Shown here one piece after another: positions 38,807 to 47,015 of a stretch of 63,900 bases of DNA (positions are counted from its first letter, which is position 1; the number at the start of each line of letters is the position of its first letter). Under the pieces are notes generated by a model. The model was not told the DNA's origin, made no database searches, and saw nothing but the letters and a program-made list of their open reading frames with translations. This DNA comes from an uncultured Flavobacteriales bacterium (GTDB lineage Bacteria > Bacteroidota > Bacteroidia > Palsa-965): the NCBI GenBank assembly GCA_903873905.1, contig CAIQQJ010000178.1, forward strand, positions 1 through 63,900, written 5' to 3'. A program made the position numbers and the translations under genes.

Positions 38807-39057
38807 GGGACGCGGGACGTAAAATGGAGATTGTGTTTTATGAATTGGGTGTCAAATAAAAATGACGAATATTATAAATTAGTTATTAAACCTTTTTGAA
38901 AATGTTACGTCATACAATTAGCCGACAAAAAAATACTCTTTGCCGAAATTTTCACGAAACTTTTGTTTTTAACCGTTAATACTAAACTATCGATACTACT
39001 TTTACACCGCCATTGACATTCCTGCGAGAAGAAAACATAAATATAAATCATAGGTGT

Positions 39058-39300
39058 ATGAAGCTTAAAAAAAACATTGCTACAAGCGAATCGGGATTCA
39101 TCTTTAATCCTGCAACTGGAGATTCCTATTCAGCAAATCCAGTTGGATCCGACATCATTCTTCTGATGAAGGACAATAAATCCATTGCCGAGATCAAAAA
39201 AAACATCACGTCTAAATATGATGTGGACGATTCGCAGTTTGATAAAGACTACGATGATCTGTTGGCTCAATTGCGCGACAATAATCTGCTCGAGCATTAA
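39058..39300 (+). CDS. PqqD-like peptide-recognition protein
   Basis: An 80-residue protein with the PqqD fold pattern: MKLKKNIATSESGFIFNPATG, then GSDIILLMKDNKSIAEIKKN (winged-helix helices) and a C-terminal helix DDLLAQLRDNNLLEH. PqqD proteins and the related lasso-peptide B1 proteins are RiPP recognition elements that hold the leader of a precursor peptide for modifying enzymes. I choose the ATG at 39058; a longer start adds 15 residues without match. It is the first gene of a six-gene operon; the next gene starts 17 bases later. No separate precursor peptide gene is visible, which makes the leader-like tail of the third gene interesting. Confidence 0.85.
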   Translation: MKLKKNIATSESGFIFNPATGDSYSANPVGSDIILLMKDNKSIAEIKKNITSKYDVDDSQFDKDYDDLLAQLRDNNLLEH

Positions 39301-39317: not shown

Positions 39318-40385
39318 ATGAAGGACAAAAATAAAAAAGGTGATCGTCCGCGGTATACCGTGGCTGTCACAGGACTAAACGCTATTGATTCCCCTGGGCC
39401 TGGAATGGCCGTGATTCGTGCTGTGCGTGAAGCAAAAGATTATGATGTTCGCATCATTGGACTTTCTTACGAAGCACTGGAACCCGGAATTTACTTGCAC
39501 GATTGGGTGGATAAAACTTATCAGATTCCATATCCAGCAGCAGGAAGTGAATCCTTGTTCGCACGTTTGGAATATATTAATGACATTGAAAAGATTGACG
39601 TGCTCATTCCTAATTTCGATGCGGAGCTTCATAATTTCATTCGTCTTGGAGAGAAATTACGGAAAATTGGAATTGCAACATTTCTTCCAGCAATGGATCA
39701 ATTCGAAGCGCGTGATAAAGTGAATCTTTACGCATTCGGACAGAAACACGGTTTGCTTGTTCCTGCAGATCGAATCATTTATAAAGTAGAAGATCTTGCA
39801 GGAACGGCGAAAGATTTCGGTTGGCCAATTGTGGTGAAAGGGAAATTTTATGAAGCTGTCGTTGCACAAACGCTCGAGCAAGCACAAAAAGCATTTCACA
39901 AATTGCACGCGAAGTGGGGGCTTCCAATTATTGTTCAACAATTTATTTCTGGAAGTGAAATGAACATCGCTGTGCTTGGTGATGGAAAAGGAAATACGAT
40001 TTCTGCAATTCCCATGCGAAAATTATATATCACTGATAAAGGAAAAGCGTGGGCGGGAATTACAGTTGAAGACAATGCGCTGATCGATCTCGCGAAGAAA
40101 TTCATTACAGCAACCAAATGGCGAGGTGGATTGGAAATTGAAATCATGCTTTCTGTTGATGGAAAACCTTACATCATGGAAGTCAATCCAAGATTTCCTG
40201 CGTGGATTTATTTGACAGCAGGAGCAGGACAAAATCAGCCCGCTGCATTGGTTAAGATGGCACTTGGTGAAACGGTTGAGCCTTACACAACTTATGATGT
40301 TGGGAAAATGTTCATCCGTTACGCATGGGATCATATTGTGAACATTGAAGAATTTCAAAAAATTTCCGCATTCGGAGAATTATAA
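39318..40385 (+). CDS. ATP-grasp ligase
   Basis: A 355-residue ATP-grasp enzyme of the carbamoyl-phosphate-synthase-large/biotin-carboxylase relation. A pre-ATP-grasp Rossmann-like N-domain (YTVAVTGLNAIDSPGPG) leads into the grasp: lysine in WPIVVKGKFY, VQQFISGSEMNI for ATP contact, and metal ligands LEIEIML and MEVNPRFPAW. It should form an amide, peptide or thioester bond using ATP, with a carboxylate and a nucleophile. No amidotransferase or carboxylase companion exists here. Operon place between the PqqD-like gene and a LysA-like PLP enzyme recalls the butirosin pair BtrJ (ATP-grasp) and BtrK (decarboxylase). The substrate is unknown. Confidence 0.88.
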   Translation: MKDKNKKGDRPRYTVAVTGLNAIDSPGPGMAVIRAVREAKDYDVRIIGLSYEALEPGIYLHDWVDKTYQIPYPAAGSESLFARLEYINDIEKIDVLIPNFDAELHNFIRLGEKLRKIGIATFLPAMDQFEARDKVNLYAFGQKHGLLVPADRIIYKVEDLAGTAKDFGWPIVVKGKFYEAVVAQTLEQAQKAFHKLHAKWGLPIIVQQFISGSEMNIAVLGDGKGNTISAIPMRKLYITDKGKAWAGITVEDNALIDLAKKFITATKWRGGLEIEIMLSVDGKPYIMEVNPRFPAWIYLTAGAGQNQPAALVKMALGETVEPYTTYDVGKMFIRYAWDHIVNIEEFQKISAFGEL

Positions 40386-40406: not shown

Positions 40407-41768
40407 ATGGCAAAGCTTAAATACGAACGTCCTGTCATCAAAAAATTGAATGCAGGATTAATGAATAAATTCGGAACACGCACGGAATTCGAACCTGTAA
40501 AACATATTGACGGTGTGGCTGTGAAATCACTCATTGAAAAATATGGCTCTCCTGTTTTTGTTATTTCAGAAAGACAAATGCGGAGAAATTACCAGAATGC
40601 AGTTCGTTCTTTCAAGACACGTTATCCGAAAGTGCAATTCGCATGGTCTTACAAAACAAATTACATCAATGCAGTTTGTAATGTATTTCACCAAGAAGGA
40701 TCATGGGGAGAAGTGGTTTCTGGTTTTGAATACAACAAGGCTTTGCGCAATGGTGTTCCCGGAAATAAAATTATTTTCAACGGACCCGATAAATCAGAAC
40801 AGGATTTGCGTGATGCAATAAAAAATGATTCGCTCATTCATATTGATCACTTTGATGAATTGTATTCACTGATCAGTTTGTGTGAAACGATCAATGCAAA
40901 ACCAAGAGTTGCCATTCGTGTGAATATGGACACCGGTATTTATCCAATGTGGGATCGTTTTGGTTTCAATTATGAGAATGGTTCAGCGTGGAATGCTATT
41001 CAGAAAATTATTGGCTCTGGAAAATTGAGATTGGTTGGATTGCATTCACACATTGGTACTTTCATGCTTGCACCTTCTGCCTATTCAGTTGCAGCATCCA
41101 AACTTTGCGATCTCATGTGGCATTGCAAGAATCAACACAATTTGCAATTGCAGTACATTGACCTTGGCGGTGGATTCCCTTCTCAAAATACTTTGAAAGG
41201 TTCTTATTTGCCAGGCACAGATACCGTTCCTTCCATTGATGAATTTGCAGAAGCTATTACAACAACAATTCTGAATTTTGGATTCAAAACTGAAGAATTG
41301 CCTTTGTTGATTTTGGAAACAGGTCGCGCACTTATTGATGATGCAGGATATCTACTTGGTTCTGTCCTTGCAAATAAACGTTTGGCTGATGGACGTCGCG
41401 CAACGATAATGGATTTTGGTGTGAACATCATGTTCACTTCGTTTTGGTACGATCACAAAATAAGTCCTGCACAAGATTTCACACATCACACCGAGGATCA
41501 AGTTGTTTACGGACCACTTTGTATGAACATTGATTGCATTCGAGAAAGTGTGAGTTTGCCTTTGCTCAATCGTGGCGATCATGTTGTGGTACACAAAGTA
41601 GGCGCTTACAACATGACACAGTGGATGCAATTTATTGCCATGCGTCCAAATGTGGTAATGATTGACATGGAACAAACACCACATCTCATTCGTCGTGCTG
41701 AAAAATTGGATGATATTGTTTCATTGGAAGAAATGCCGGCGTATTTGAAAAAGATTGATTTAAAGTAA
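40407..41768 (+). CDS. LysA-like PLP-dependent decarboxylase with leader-like N-terminal tail
   Basis: 453 residues, fold-type III (alanine racemase barrel plus C-terminal beta domain). PLP lysine in FAWSYKTNYI (Lys83), HSHIGT for the ring, GGGFP phosphate loop, LETGRALIDDAG (E-x-GR in place of EPGR), GPLCMNIDC with the catalytic cysteine, and VGAYNM with the tyrosine. These are features of diaminopimelate and related D/L-amino-acid decarboxylases. Residues 1-30 precede the usual start and include KLKYERPVIKKLNAGLMNK: Tyr6-x2-Pro9-x4-Leu14-x2-Gly17, like the leader motif bound by PqqD-type domains. It is in an operon far from dapB, so a role in standard lysine synthesis is less likely. Confidence 0.88.
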   Translation: MAKLKYERPVIKKLNAGLMNKFGTRTEFEPVKHIDGVAVKSLIEKYGSPVFVISERQMRRNYQNAVRSFKTRYPKVQFAWSYKTNYINAVCNVFHQEGSWGEVVSGFEYNKALRNGVPGNKIIFNGPDKSEQDLRDAIKNDSLIHIDHFDELYSLISLCETINAKPRVAIRVNMDTGIYPMWDRFGFNYENGSAWNAIQKIIGSGKLRLVGLHSHIGTFMLAPSAYSVAASKLCDLMWHCKNQHNLQLQYIDLGGGFPSQNTLKGSYLPGTDTVPSIDEFAEAITTTILNFGFKTEELPLLILETGRALIDDAGYLLGSVLANKRLADGRRATIMDFGVNIMFTSFWYDHKISPAQDFTHHTEDQVVYGPLCMNIDCIRESVSLPLLNRGDHVVVHKVGAYNMTQWMQFIAMRPNVVMIDMEQTPHLIRRAEKLDDIVSLEEMPAYLKKIDLK

Positions 41769-41791: not shown

Positions 41792-43957
41792 ATGAATTTT
41801 CTTCAAATAAAATCTTGGCCCAATGCCATTCTTCGAACTTATGCGATTGTTCTTTTTTCGCAGAAGAAATGGCTTGGCGTCTTGCTTTTATTCGTTTCCT
41901 TCTTGAATCCTGTTGCTGGAATGTGTGGGATTATTTCGGTGTGTGCTGCAATTCTCATTGCTGAAGTCACACATTTAAATCAAGCTGGAATTCATAGTGG
42001 ACTTTACAGCTTCAATGCGTTGATGGTGGGCGTTGGAATGGGGACTTTTTATGAAACGGGTTTTGCATTTTATATTGTTCTCTTCACTGCCGTTTTATTG
42101 AGTGTAATACTTTCATCAATTTTAGCTGCCTGGTTTGGAAAATACGGATTACCATTTCTTTCCCTTCCATTTGTATTTACGTTTTGGTTGGTATTGCTTG
42201 CTACGAAAGAGTTTTCATACATTGGTTTGAGTCAACGAAATGTTTATTGGCTCAATGAAATGTATGCAGCAGGAGGACAACCATTAGTTTCCTTTTTTAC
42301 ATGGATTGAGAATTTACCAATGCCAGATGTTGTTGGGTATTATTTCCGTGCATTGAGCGCATTGTTTTTTCAGAGCAATGTTTTGGGTGGAATGATTATT
42401 TGCGTGGGACTATTATTTTTTTCCAGAATACATTTCACCTTATCCATTCTCGGATTTGTTTGTGCATATGGTTTCAATTATCTCACAGGAGGATATGCAT
42501 CTGGAATAAATTATTACAATCTCGGAAGTAATTATATGATGGTTGCATTGGCAATAGGAGGTTTCTTTTCCATTCCATCCAACGCTTCGTATTTATGGGC
42601 GGTATGGAGCATTCCATTAACATCATTGCTCGTAATTGGACTTGGGAAAATATTTGGTGTCTTGTTATTGCCAACTTTTTCTCTCCCAATGTGCCTTATC
42701 GTTATAGCATTCATCTTCTTTATGAAGCAGCGAATGTTTGAGGGAAAATTGAAATTAGCACACATTCAACATTATTCTCCGGAAGTGAATCGTTATCTTT
42801 TTCTTAATGGACAAGAACGTTGGAAGGATTTATATTATTTCCATTTATTTCCTCCTTTCCTAGGAGAATGGGCTGTAACGCAAGGTTATGATGGCAGCAT
42901 CACACACAAAGGTGATTGGAGCAAAGCATTGGATTTTTCAGTGTTAGATGAGGAAATGAAAACTTATTCAGGAGCCGGAGTTCATTGTGAGGATTTTTAT
43001 TGCTTCAATAAACCTGTTCTCGCTCCATGCGATGGAATTGTGGAAGAAATCATTGACAATGTGGATGATAATGCCATTGGTGAAGTGAATACAAAAGAGA
43101 ATTGGGGAAATACAATTGTGATACGTCATTGGACAGGATTGTATACAAAGATGTCGCATTTGAGGAAGAATTCTTTTCGAGTGAAAAAAGGAGATTTTAT
43201 TCACCGTGGTGATATTGTTGCATTGTGTGGAAATTCCGGTCGTTCTCCTGAACCGCATTTGCATTTTCAAGTTCAATCTTTTCCACACGTAGGTTCGAGC
43301 ACAATTGAATATCCGCTTGCCTATTATGTTGTGCGAGAACACAAAAAAATAATTCCTGAGAATTTTTCTATTCCTAAGGAAGGCCAACTCATTAGCAGTG
43401 TTGAAATAAATTCTTCAATGAGTGATGCATTCCGATTTCAGCCTGGATTCAAAACAACATTCCGCATTTCTGAAAATGGAATTGACACGGAAGAAACTTG
43501 GGAAGTCTTTACAGATGCATGGAATCATACGTACATCTGGTCGAAAGAAAAAAAATCTACAGGATATTTTGTGAATAATGGAACGGTGTTTTATTTCACA
43601 GGATTTTATGGCGACAAAAGTTCTTTGTTGTATACTTTTTATCTCTCCTGTTATCGTGTTATGCTCTCGATTATGAATGGGGTTTCGATTAAAGACAGTT
43701 TCCCTTTGCATTTGCTTGGTAATAGTCCAAGGATGTGGTTACAGGATTTTGTTTGTCCATTTTTCATATTTATGAAACAGGAATTTTCAATCCATGCAGA
43801 GGAGCGAGGTGATTCGATGGATTTTGGAAATGTGGTTCTTCATTCGCAGATGAAAGGAAATATCGGAAAAGCGCAAATGGATGGAGAGGTTTTGGTTGTG
43901 AATGGAAAGATTGAGAAAATTATGGCAGGAAGTAAGGAGGCGGTATGCGTGGCTTAA
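41792..43957 (+). CDS. Urea-transporter domain fused to M23 (LytM) peptidase
   Basis: 721 residues in two modules. Residues ~1-315 are an integral membrane urea-channel fold: GLYSFNALMVGVGMG near 70-84, the duplicated UT signature GLPFLSLPFVFTFW (119-132) and LLPTFSLPMCL (292-302), with about ten membrane segments. After a linker, residues ~365-500 are a LytM/M23 endopeptidase: zinc ligands His372 and Asp381 (HKGDWSKALDF), APCDGIVEEI, WGNTIVIRHW, YTKMSHLRKNSFRVKKGD, and PHLHFQV with His489 and His491. Residues ~500-721 are a further beta-rich domain without known motif. The active site appears complete. This join of a small-amide channel with a wall hydrolase is unusual. It overlaps the next gene by 13 bases. 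Confidence 0.9.
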   Translation: MNFLQIKSWPNAILRTYAIVLFSQKKWLGVLLLFVSFLNPVAGMCGIISVCAAILIAEVTHLNQAGIHSGLYSFNALMVGVGMGTFYETGFAFYIVLFTAVLLSVILSSILAAWFGKYGLPFLSLPFVFTFWLVLLATKEFSYIGLSQRNVYWLNEMYAAGGQPLVSFFTWIENLPMPDVVGYYFRALSALFFQSNVLGGMIICVGLLFFSRIHFTLSILGFVCAYGFNYLTGGYASGINYYNLGSNYMMVALAIGGFFSIPSNASYLWAVWSIPLTSLLVIGLGKIFGVLLLPTFSLPMCLIVIAFIFFMKQRMFEGKLKLAHIQHYSPEVNRYLFLNGQERWKDLYYFHLFPPFLGEWAVTQGYDGSITHKGDWSKALDFSVLDEEMKTYSGAGVHCEDFYCFNKPVLAPCDGIVEEIIDNVDDNAIGEVNTKENWGNTIVIRHWTGLYTKMSHLRKNSFRVKKGDFIHRGDIVALCGNSGRSPEPHLHFQVQSFPHVGSSTIEYPLAYYVVREHKKIIPENFSIPKEGQLISSVEINSSMSDAFRFQPGFKTTFRISENGIDTEETWEVFTDAWNHTYIWSKEKKSTGYFVNNGTVFYFTGFYGDKSSLLYTFYLSCYRVMLSIMNGVSIKDSFPLHLLGNSPRMWLQDFVCPFFIFMKQEFSIHAEERGDSMDFGNVVLHSQMKGNIGKAQMDGEVLVVNGKIEKIMAGSKEAVCVA

Positions 43958-45192
43958 GAAACATTATTTTCATTTTAATTTTCAGTGTTGGAAAATTATC
44001 CGCACAGCAATTAACTTTCCCATATGTTGATAGTGCAACCTATGCAATGTATTTGAAGGGTGATTACAATGAATTGATAAAACTTGGCAGTAAAGCCATT
44101 AAGCAGGGAATAGATTATCCCTTACTTCGTGTGCGAATGGCAGAAGCCGCAGAATTGAATAATGATTTTTCAACTGCGGAGAAAATTTATCGAGGAATTG
44201 TTATTACTGATACAACAAATGCCAATGCGCATTATCAAGTTGCTCAGAATAATATTTTTCTAAACCGTTATGATATTGCGGAATATTATGCGCCAACTTT
44301 AAATGTTGTGCAACGGAAAAATCTCGGGTTGAAAAAACATGCGCTGATTGAATCTGTAAATTTTGAGGCAGGATTGAAACACCCAGGAGACACTTCTCGT
44401 GGAAATGCTTATTTCGGAAGTGTTGGTATTTCCTCTCGACTTTTTTACCGATGGACTTTGTACCAATCTATTACGCCATATGGTCAAACGGTAACGGACA
44501 GCGATACGACATCTTCATTTCCTTTTCATCCAGCGCATATTGGGCAAATAAATTATTATGCAAAATTACACGGACAAATTTTCCCACATTTGGGAGTGAC
44601 GGCTGCATTTTATCATTTTTCTTTACGTGAAAAAGTTACGGATTGGATTCCTCCGCAGCAAAATGGACCGCACATGGGACCTCCGACACCACCGCCAACA
44701 ATCACTCAAAATGGATTTTATTTTGTTGGAGGGCTGCGTTGGAATTTGCCGAAGTTAGAGTTGCATGGAGAATATGTTGTTGGTCAAATGAATAGTTCCT
44801 CCTTCTCGCAAATGGGAGTGTCATTCATGTATTTGCCCTTTGGAAATTTGTATTCTTACGTAAGAGGTGAATGTTATTATCAACTTCCAACAAATTCTGG
44901 AAACGGTAATTTGGTTTTCATTCCAACTCTTGGTTTCAAGTTGCAGAAGAAAGTTTGGTTTGAAGCCACAGCGACATTTGGAACATTCAATAATCTTGCC
45001 CAGAATGAAGGAGCCTATTTTTTCAATATGTATGATGCAACAAAATTGCGTTACGGAGGCACCTTATTCCTTCTTGCAGGAAAGAAAAGCATTTTTACAT
45101 TGAATTATTTGCAGGAAACAAAATTAATCTCGAATACCAATTCAACTTATCAACAACCATCAATAACCTTTGGACTACAATGGAAACTATGA
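43945..45192 (+). CDS. TPR plus outer-membrane beta-barrel protein
   Basis: 415 residues. Signal peptide (MRGLRNIIFILIFSVGKLSA), then TPR-like helices (about 25-125: YLKGDYNELIKLGSKAIKQG, LNNDFSTAEKIYRGIV), then a C-terminal barrel with alternating aromatic strands (YRWTLYQSITPYG, YSYVRGECYYQLP, SITFGLQWKL). This is the plan of YaiO-like exporter/outer-membrane proteins in polysaccharide export. A Pro/Gly-rich loop (PPQQNGPHMGPPTPPPT) lies between strands. It should sit in the outer membrane and could give the operon product a way out. Starts inside the end of the preceding gene; stop overlaps the next start (ATGA). Confidence 0.8.
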   Translation: MRGLRNIIFILIFSVGKLSAQQLTFPYVDSATYAMYLKGDYNELIKLGSKAIKQGIDYPLLRVRMAEAAELNNDFSTAEKIYRGIVITDTTNANAHYQVAQNNIFLNRYDIAEYYAPTLNVVQRKNLGLKKHALIESVNFEAGLKHPGDTSRGNAYFGSVGISSRLFYRWTLYQSITPYGQTVTDSDTTSSFPFHPAHIGQINYYAKLHGQIFPHLGVTAAFYHFSLREKVTDWIPPQQNGPHMGPPTPPPTITQNGFYFVGGLRWNLPKLELHGEYVVGQMNSSSFSQMGVSFMYLPFGNLYSYVRGECYYQLPTNSGNGNLVFIPTLGFKLQKKVWFEATATFGTFNNLAQNEGAYFFNMYDATKLRYGGTLFLLAGKKSIFTLNYLQETKLISNTNSTYQQPSITFGLQWKL

Positions 45193-45809
45193 AAAAAATA
45201 ATTGTCGCACTCATGTTGTGCGTTATTACAACCGCTCAGGCGCAAACGACCACCACACAAACTGATTTGCAAACGGCTTTCAAATACAGTTATGCCTGCG
45301 AAGCTGCAGGGAATTACACGGATGCAATTGGATATCTCACCAAGGTTTATGATGAGAAAAGTTATGAAATCAATCTTCGCCTGGGATGGTTGAATTACGC
45401 AACGAAGAATTGCCCAACTTCAATTTCCTATTACCAAAAAGCAATTGACTTGCGCCCTTACGGAATTGAAGCGCGGCTGGGTTATGTGAAACCGGCTTCT
45501 GCATTGGAAAAATGGGATGATGTTCTTGCACAATACGAAGCCATTCTGAAAATCGATCCGCAAAATTCAACCGTGAATTATTATACTGGAATGATTTATT
45601 ATAATAGAAAGGATTATTTAAAGGCTGCAGGTTATTTTGAAAAAGTGGTAAATCTTTATCCCTTCGATTACAATTCATCCTTAATGTTGGGCTGGTGCGA
45701 TGTGTTCTTGGGAAAAATGAGCGATGCTAAAATCCTTTTCCAAAAAGTATTGCTTTACAGTCCAAGTGATGCTTCTGCATTGGATGGATTGAAAAGAGTA
45801 GGTCAATAG
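45189..45809 (+). CDS. Secreted TPR protein
   Basis: A 206-residue periplasmic protein from the ATG at 45189, which overlaps the previous stop (ATGA); an in-frame ATG three codons upstream is also possible. Signal peptide MKKIIVALMLCVITTAQA, then about five TPR units (YACEAAGNYTDAIGYLTKV, NYYTGMIYYNRKDYLKAAGYF, LMLGWCDVFLGKMSDAKILF). Likely a periplasmic partner of the barrel protein encoded just upstream. It is the last gene of the operon; a strong bidirectional terminator follows. Confidence 0.85.
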   Translation: MKKIIVALMLCVITTAQAQTTTTQTDLQTAFKYSYACEAAGNYTDAIGYLTKVYDEKSYEINLRLGWLNYATKNCPTSISYYQKAIDLRPYGIEARLGYVKPASALEKWDDVLAQYEAILKIDPQNSTVNYYTGMIYYNRKDYLKAAGYFEKVVNLYPFDYNSSLMLGWCDVFLGKMSDAKILFQKVLLYSPSDASALDGLKRVGQ

Positions 45810-45926: not shown

Positions 45927-47015
45927 TTATTTGTGTGATTCGATGTAAGAATTCAATTTGTCAACAGATCCTGAAAAAGTAAATCCATCGTTCAATTGAT
46001 AATAATTATTTGGATCAGTTGTTTTTCCATAAGCAAACTCAGCCCAATCCACTTTAGTATCTTCGAAACTGAACAATGCCATAATTTCTTTTATTTGAGA
46101 AGTACTCATACAATTTGTATTGAGAACCTGTTTGGCAATTTTCAATTTTTGATCCTCGAATGATTGTCCTCCAACTGATTTTTTTGCATTGGCAAAATCA
46201 GATGAACTCATAGGAAAAGCACACTGATTGGAAGCAGGCGGTGGTGTTGCTGTGCTTGTATTACTTCCTCCAGTTGTAGTGGAAGAGGACGAGGACGAAG
46301 TTGTAGTAGTAGTAGTTGAAGTGGATGTACCTGTTCCATTCATTCCATCATTCACATTGATATTAATTCCAATTCCAACGCCACCTGCATTCATACCAAC
46401 ATTGATATTATCTGCAGTTCCTCCTGTTGTGGTTGTAGTGGTGGTGGTTGAACTTGTGCCACCTGTTCCGTCCCCAACTGTTGTTGTGGTTTGGCTTCCT
46501 GTGTTATTCGGTACAATTACAACTCCTGTGTTTACGTTAGTGCCAGTTGTTGTAGAACCCGTTGTTGTGGTTGTTGTGTTGGAATAATTCGTTGCATTTC
46601 CTGAAGGATTGAATACATAAATAACTTGTCCAGGTGCTGCTGGTCCTTGTGGGGTAATGTCGGCAACGCTCTGGCCCTTAAGTTTCATCCCCTTTTTTCC
46701 GTTTGCAATAACATATGTGAATTCCTTGTTGGTTACATTTTCTCCACCATCCATCAAATAAACATTTTGATCAATAGGAGCAAGGCCAGCATTTTCAAAA
46801 ATGACACGTACTTTATAATTCGAGGCGTTTAGACCAGTAACTTTTACATTCGTTTCTGGTTTTTCATTCTGCTTTAGGCCATTTACAATAAGTGAGAATT
46901 TATCGCCGTCTTGCGAAAAGACAACAATATTGTTATTTAATGTTTGAGCGAATGCAAAACAAGTAGAAAGCAATAGCGCTGATGACATGGAAAATTTTCG
47001 GAGAGTTGTTTTCAT
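45927..47015 (-). CDS. DUF4476 domain secreted protein
   Basis: 362 residues: signal peptide (MKTTLRKFSMSSALLLSTCFAFAQ), a beta-rich N-domain (KFSLIVNGLKQNEKPETNVKV, the usual opening of DUF4476 proteins), a long Thr/Ser/Gly low-complexity linker (about 140-265), and the C-terminal DUF4476 helical domain (MSSSDFANAKKSVGGQSFEDQKL, CMSTSQIKEIMALFSFEDTKVDWAEFAY). Widespread in Bacteroidota with unknown function. The Thr repeats are coded by ACA/ACC-rich tracts, prone to length change. 47016-47403 upstream holds AT-rich sequence with a CAAAGGTA box at 47110-47117 for this gene. Confidence 0.85.
   Translation of the reverse strand: MKTTLRKFSMSSALLLSTCFAFAQTLNNNIVVFSQDGDKFSLIVNGLKQNEKPETNVKVTGLNASNYKVRVIFENAGLAPIDQNVYLMDGGENVTNKEFTYVIANGKKGMKLKGQSVADITPQGPAAPGQVIYVFNPSGNATNYSNTTTTTTGSTTTGTNVNTGVVIVPNNTGSQTTTTVGDGTGGTSSTTTTTTTTGGTADNINVGMNAGGVGIGININVNDGMNGTGTSTSTTTTTTSSSSSSTTTGGSNTSTATPPPASNQCAFPMSSSDFANAKKSVGGQSFEDQKLKIAKQVLNTNCMSTSQIKEIMALFSFEDTKVDWAEFAYGKTTDPNNYYQLNDGFTFSGSVDKLNSYIESHK

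Follow-up and report, generated by a model that had tools for sequence, protein, structure and literature searches.

The window analyzed here, a stretch of 63,900 nucleotides from an uncultured Flavobacteriales bacterium, contains six genes between positions 39013 and 45809 that are all encoded on the same strand, in the order PqqD-like protein, ATP-grasp ligase, decarboxylase, UT-M23 fusion, barrel, TPR protein:

39013..39300, forward strand: PqqD-like (RRE-type) small protein (Pfam PqqD, 1.7e-11)
39318..40385, forward strand: ATP-grasp ligase (Pfam ATPgrasp_Ter, 6.4e-12; ATP-grasp_3, 5.7e-10)
40407..41768, forward strand: PLP decarboxylase of the alanine racemase fold, FigC/BtrK-like (Pfam Orn_Arg_deC_N, 4.1e-27)
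41792..43957, forward strand: UT-M23 fusion (UT fold, residues ~1-345; M23, ~349-526; beta-rich part, ~538 to 721)
43945..45192, forward strand: outer-membrane barrel (signal-like N terminus; TPR-like helices, residues 25-127; 14 beta strands, 133-414)
45180..45809, forward strand: TPR protein with a signal-like N terminus (Pfam TPR_2, 2.6e-16)

The UT-M23 and barrel genes share 13 bases, as do the barrel and TPR genes. The fusion gene is an open frame encoding 721 amino acids, and many stops are present on the opposite strand of the same interval in the frame that was looked at.

A Pfam search started with the fusion protein identifies UT (residues 12-310, 1.3e-49) and Peptidase_M23 (residues 406-495, 1.1e-15). 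The AlphaFold2 model, which was built from 42 sequences and has a mean pLDDT of 88.5, consists of the three parts listed above, in agreement with the original prediction of a UT fold, an M23 peptidase and a beta-rich part in one chain. Comparison of the first ~345 residues with solved urea channels yields Z of 35-37 over ~310 residues; for dvUT (3k3f), Z is 36.3 with an rmsd of 2.9 over 310 residues, and the superposition with UTs spans the whole domain. The Pfam match and the superposition of the model together identify the ten helices in two inverted halves that are characteristic of the UT fold, and the motifs GLPFLSLPF and LLPTFSLPM, from which the fold was originally recognized, are located at residues 119-127 and 292-300.

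The M23 part of the model is similar to the LytM, EnvC and ShyA domains, with Z of ~14. The four ligands named in the original prediction, His372, Asp381, His489 and His491, are found at these positions and, together with His456, are invariant in all 149 UT-M23 homologues, so that their presence is not due to chance; the zinc ligands and the catalytic histidine that identify an M23 family member are present in 149/149. The first-ligand motif of LytM is HxxxD, which is shorter than His372-x8-Asp381, and similarly long spacing is seen in secreted M23 relatives. The four residues are predicted zinc ligands on the basis of their invariance and of the spacing in the secreted relatives, not of coordinates, and the peptidase is intact as far as the sequence tells, with predicted activity, rather than a degenerate domain. 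Thus, the fold and the His/Asp/His/His ligands are shared with M23 metallopeptidases such as LytM, ShyA and EnvC and with secreted relatives from Bacteroidota (loci L228-L230), whereas the location of the domain on a polytopic channel, its predicted cytoplasmic position and the longer spacing between the first His and Asp are distinct. At one locus from a single-contig genome (L208:9423-11698), UT and M23 are encoded in two overlapping frames; this split was considered as a clue to topology and set aside as uninformative because overlapping frames are more reminiscent of a frameshift.

The pore of the UT domain differs from that of urea channels. In dvUT, the filter includes an So site (E187, V188, F190 and L293) and an Sm site (L84, T130, L247 and T294), and the Si site includes F80, L129 and a glutamine that is named via UT-A2 Q67 (PMC4357013). 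The dvUT partner of this glutamine was taken to be Q24 from our own alignment, and the residues of the window protein were likewise matched to dvUT by alignment. Under this correspondence, dvUT E187 and Q24 are replaced by Ala190 and Ile19, respectively, both hydrophobic or small. Among the 149 fused proteins, position 190 is occupied by Ala in 89, Ser in 40, Leu in 9, Gly in 6 and other residues in 5, and never by Glu or Gln; the Si position 19 retains Gln in 71/149. In contrast, standalone UTs from the same class (16 sequences, from 21 genomes counted as having a standalone UT) keep both the So Glu/Gln and the Si Gln in 16/16. Given that the So Glu/Gln is absent from every fused protein and kept in every standalone one, UT-M23 is predicted not to be a usual urea channel: the fold is that of UT, and the filter is unlike that of a urea channel. 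The pore motif is thus partly conserved, in that the slot phenylalanine (Phe193) is kept in 49/49 UT-M23 rows and serine mostly takes the place of the Sm threonines (43/49 and 37/49 rows), and the So Glu/Gln is lost. In other words, UT-M23 has in common with the UT/SLC14 urea channels (PF03253; dvUT, UT-B) the whole-domain fold, the slot phenylalanine and Ser/Thr at the Sm sites, and differs from them in the substitution of the So Glu/Gln by Ala, Ser or other residues, in the loss of the Gln24 equivalent in the window protein and in the fusion to M23. The original assignment to urea-type channels holds for the fold and fails for the filter. The score against TIGR03441 is 95 bits, compared with a cut-off of 274.6. 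The absence of urease from the window, which was noted originally, extends to the whole genome of this bacterium, where urease alpha has no match; clear urease (E<1e-50) is found in 7/395 genomes of the class and in only 1 of the 82 genomes with UT-M23. A link to urease was therefore rejected.

The three upstream genes encode putative enzymes and a potential binding protein. Homologues of the PqqD-like protein align from residue ~15, and translation likely begins with the ATG at 39058 (M16); the protein has ~80 residues with an unconserved tail. Ser38 (39124-39126) of its Gly-(Asp/Glu/Asn)-Ser motif, Gly-Asp-Ser in the window, is invariant in 44/44 sequences. For the decarboxylase, the closest solved structure is 7kh2, the N-citrylornithine decarboxylase FigC (1.5e-53), and the residue correspondences given here were read off the pairwise alignment with 7kh2. 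The PLP and pocket residues are invariant in 47/47 decarboxylases, including Thr344 and Cys372-Met373, except for Tyr348 (46/47); this invariance suggests one common substrate. Thr344 and Tyr348 correspond to FigC T327 and Y331, in place of the Asp of ornithine enzymes and the Arg of DAP decarboxylase. The protein does not appear to be a DAP decarboxylase: it scores 213.6 bits against LysA, below the cut-off of 297.9, and Met373, not an acidic residue, is adjacent to the Cys in 47/47. FigC, SbnH, AcsE, MccE and BtrK are grouped as decarboxylases of conjugated amino acids, and in FigC, a Met is adjacent to the catalytic Cys, and Thr and Tyr project from the specificity helix (PMC7857480). The catalytic Lys and Cys, the Met next to the Cys, and the specificity-helix Thr and Tyr are all shared by the operon decarboxylase; the citrate contacts of FigC, H357 and R387, however, are replaced by Ile375 and Gln405 in 47/47, so that the conjugation partner is probably not citrate. 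The substrate, then, is probably a conjugated amino acid other than a citryl one.

The natural candidate for the maker of this conjugate is the adjoining ATP-grasp protein. BtrJ is the ATP-grasp ligase of the butirosin module BtrI/BtrJ/BtrK, in which a small protein is likewise paired with a PLP decarboxylase whose amino acid substrate is bound to a carrier; the operon described here differs in having a PqqD-like protein instead of the acyl carrier and in the additional UT-M23 and envelope genes. The BtrK substrate is carried on an 87-residue carrier (PMC7857480), and by analogy, one could speculate that the PqqD-like protein holds or steers the substrate.

The two downstream genes encode predicted envelope proteins. 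The AlphaFold2 model of the barrel protein (mean pLDDT 93.3) consists of TPR-like helices followed by 14 strands, and the nearest solved barrels are those of small-molecule channels, CymD/FadL/TodX/CymA (Z 19-20, ~10% identity). TPR matches are found in up to 23/50 barrel homologues. PgaA and AlgK/AlgE are export pairs that consist of TPRs and an outer-membrane barrel. The operon barrel is likewise 14-stranded, as in FadL/TodX/CymA, and follows a TPR region as in these pairs; unlike them, the operon lacks a polymer synthase, and the identity to the FadL-type channels is limited to the ~10% given above.

The gene order is fixed within the class, in the named loci and outside the class. UT-M23 matches were detected in 87/395 class genomes, of which 82 encode all or part of the fusion after removal of 5 genomes that match the M23 region only; the decarboxylase is present in 74/395. 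As tallied by eye from the match tables, both are present in 71 genomes, UT-M23 only in 11, the decarboxylase only in 3 and neither in 310 (Fisher p 2.5e-62), and in each of the 3 decarboxylase-only genomes, part of a UT is found at the end of a contig. At 51 loci of the class, PqqD and ATP-grasp genes were found in 46/51, the decarboxylase in 48/51 and TPR in 47/51. Among 80 named loci, 75 include the decarboxylase, and the remaining 5 have less than 450 bases upstream before the contig end. Outside the class, 22 genomes contributed 23 loci, all of which encode ATP-grasp, decarboxylase and UT-M23, with PqqD in 22/23 and TPR detected in 19/23. The suggestion that the fusion is accompanied by PqqD-like and ATP-grasp neighbors is thus borne out for nearly all fusions, with one order and with the decarboxylase in 71/82 UT-M23 genomes; a fusion common in genomes without the operon is not what is observed.

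An alignment scan of a genome collection detected at least 564 stretches encoding a UT-M23 relative, and the best 80 of these belong to Bacteroidota, including culturable Pedobacter and Mucilaginibacter, or to records named only as uncultured bacterium. In the order to which the window bacterium belongs (a single family), UT-M23 is present in 3/12 genomes, and it was not found in six other members of the genus. The window operon matches that of genome G113 from another family at 51-55% for UT-M23 and 79% for the decarboxylase, and those of its own family less closely, at 41% and 69-72%, respectively. The operon is therefore patchy and perhaps was gained horizontally. A plasmid-borne operon was considered and rejected, with one partial, M23-only match among 72,556 records, as was an anti-phage defence function, for which PADLOC gave no match with any of the six operon proteins. 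No report on the UT-M23 fusion or the operon was found among the entries listed in searches of an open-licence library, and the main text of a review on M23 (PMC9662197) has no word starting with "urea".

Among the 11 UT-M23 genomes without a decarboxylase match, the 7 loci analyzed group into a single clade (support 1.0) with other neighbors. In 6/7, a decarboxylase of a different fold, OKR_DC_1, is encoded in divergent orientation, a relative of M. tuberculosis Rv2531c, the activity of which is unclarified according to PMC12910592; 5 of these 6 also encode a different ATP-grasp (PRK06524), and contig ends cut the others. OKR_DC_1, the PRK06524 ATP-grasp and a small protein that looks VOC-like by eye are present at L056, L231, L232, L234 and L236 (L235 is cut). 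In a sample of 90 genomes, OKR_DC_1 was found in 5, 4 of them without UT-M23, where it is adjacent to the same ATP-grasp in 4/4 and to an aminotransferase-like gene (by eye) in 3/4. Given that the decarboxylase-less loci comprise one clade, the swap of the enzymes is one event; independent replacement of both enzymes, which was considered initially and would have lent strong support, was downgraded for this reason and because OKR_DC_1 mostly (4/5) occurs without UT-M23. The alternative decarboxylase/ATP-grasp pairing of this clade is best treated as a lead only.

The position of the M23 domain relative to the membrane is central to the interpretation. In UT-B, both termini are intracellular (PMC5700210). 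In the 49 UT-M23 rows, the loops on the side of the termini contain 1.37 Lys+Arg per 10 residues compared with 0.38 on the opposite side; the values for the 42 rows of another alignment (A2), which overlaps the 49-row set in the window protein and perhaps in others, are 1.65 and 0.26, and those for standalone UTs are 1.84 and 0.25. A hydropathy scan past residue 313 detects no additional membrane helix between UT and M23, with the mean of every 19-residue stretch at or below 1.09. From the full-length match of the UT domain to UTs, and from loop charges that fit the UT-B orientation, we infer that the M23 domain is likely cytoplasmic, next to the inner opening of the pore. Such a placement argues against the local opening of peptidoglycan that was originally proposed. 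It would also be unusual, given that the standalone M23 proteins most closely related to the domain are secreted, with signal-like N termini. The conserved cysteines 404, 479 and 584 include no obligate pair. In the 149 sequences, Cys404 and Cys479 are both present in 124, only Cys404 in 15, only Cys479 in 5 and neither in 5 (p 0.004); this weak association could also be explained by a disulfide and hence a periplasmic location. As proof of such a location, the putative Cys404-Cys479 disulfide was rejected because Cys404 without Cys479 in 15/149 indicates that the pair is not obligate.

Taken together, these observations suggest that the channel, as part of this operon, probably contributes to the synthesis, release and transport of a small amide or amine and not of urea. 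Tentatively, the best explanation is a dedicated system for one metabolite, which would be ligated, decarboxylated, cleaved and passed out. Under this scheme, the cytoplasmic ATP-grasp would form an amide bond between an amino acid and a partner, possibly aided by the PqqD-like protein in the role of binding partner or carrier, and the PLP decarboxylase would strip the carboxylate while the amino acid is conjugated. The M23 domain, docked at the cytoplasmic face of the UT channel, would then cleave the conjugate, releasing a small product, an amine or amide, at the mouth of the pore, so that cleavage would be coupled to passage; this product would reach the periplasm via the altered pore and cross the outer membrane by way of the TPR protein and the TPR/14-strand barrel. 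Export rather than import is a guess. The conserved operon, the folds of the predicted models, the complete active sites and the pore change are results of the analysis; the side of M23, the substrate, the direction and the coupling are inferred. Counting against the scheme are the secreted M23 relatives, the weak cysteine association and the 11 UT-M23 genomes without a decarboxylase match. The more specific proposal, that the UT pore has been converted into the outlet of a biosynthetic pathway, with a cytoplasmic M23 off-loading a carrier- or acyl-bound decarboxylated amine into the pore, is possible although rather doubtful.

An unlikely scenario, which broadens the original idea, is that M23 is periplasmic and trims peptidoglycan, with the UT channel, the TPR protein and the barrel meeting across the wall. 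The secreted standalone relatives, the proximity of the M23 fold to the LytM, EnvC and ShyA types, the two envelope partners encoded next in overlapping genes, the weak association of the two cysteines and a LytTR-type regulator near the operon in 23/45 loci all are compatible with such a conduit. The predicted topology argues against it: the end-to-end match to UTs places the termini on the same side, where the positive loops are, and there is no further membrane helix between UT and M23. Maturation of a RiPP, whereby the PqqD-like RRE would bind a precursor, the ATP-grasp and decarboxylase would modify it and M23 would remove the leader, appears improbable. The PqqD family match fits, and the combination of ATP-grasp with an RRE resembles the logic of graspetides. 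Against this, no conserved precursor-like small ORF, indeed no conserved small ORF other than the PqqD-like one, was found within 3.5 kb at 45 loci, where the positions of other recurrent small ORFs suggest that they shadow the main genes, in antisense or in an alternative frame. The UT pore also is too narrow for a peptide, because UT pores constrict to 2-3 Angstrom (PMC10541013). Very improbable is an ordinary urea channel in which the peptidase domain serves for regulation: the UT fold with Z of 36, Ser/Thr at both Sm sites in most rows, Phe193 in 49/49 rows and the structure of dvUT with 1,3-dimethylurea (title of 3k3g) are all in its favor, and yet it is contradicted by the So position that is never Glu/Gln, by Ile19 and Ala190 in place of Q24 and E187, by clear urease in only 1 of the 82 UT-M23 genomes and none in this one, and by the low TIGR03441 score.

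If the UT pore indeed is such an outlet, the operon would represent a new kind of envelope export system that is spread through Bacteroidota and in which M23, otherwise known as a family of wall-cutting enzymes, acts in the cytoplasm. The fusion is of interest for the natural change in the selectivity filter of its UT fold and for a possible non-wall role of M23 hydrolases. It is neither rare nor free-standing, being part of an operon that is widespread in Bacteroidota, and the gene would otherwise be annotated as a urea transporter. The operon, which would make an uncharacterized metabolite, can be deleted in laboratory-grown strains.

Next to the operon in the window, the reverse strand carries a gene (45927-47015) whose product is predicted to be secreted and includes long low-complexity stretches rich in Thr, Ser and Gly. 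At the other loci, the LytTR-type protein (assigned by eye) is a response regulator whose gene, in examples such as L164, is located ~1-3.4 kb upstream of the ATP-grasp gene. An acetyltransferase-like gene (GNAT, by eye) is found ~0.85 kb upstream of the ATP-grasp gene in 14/45 loci (L169, L159 and L145, among others).
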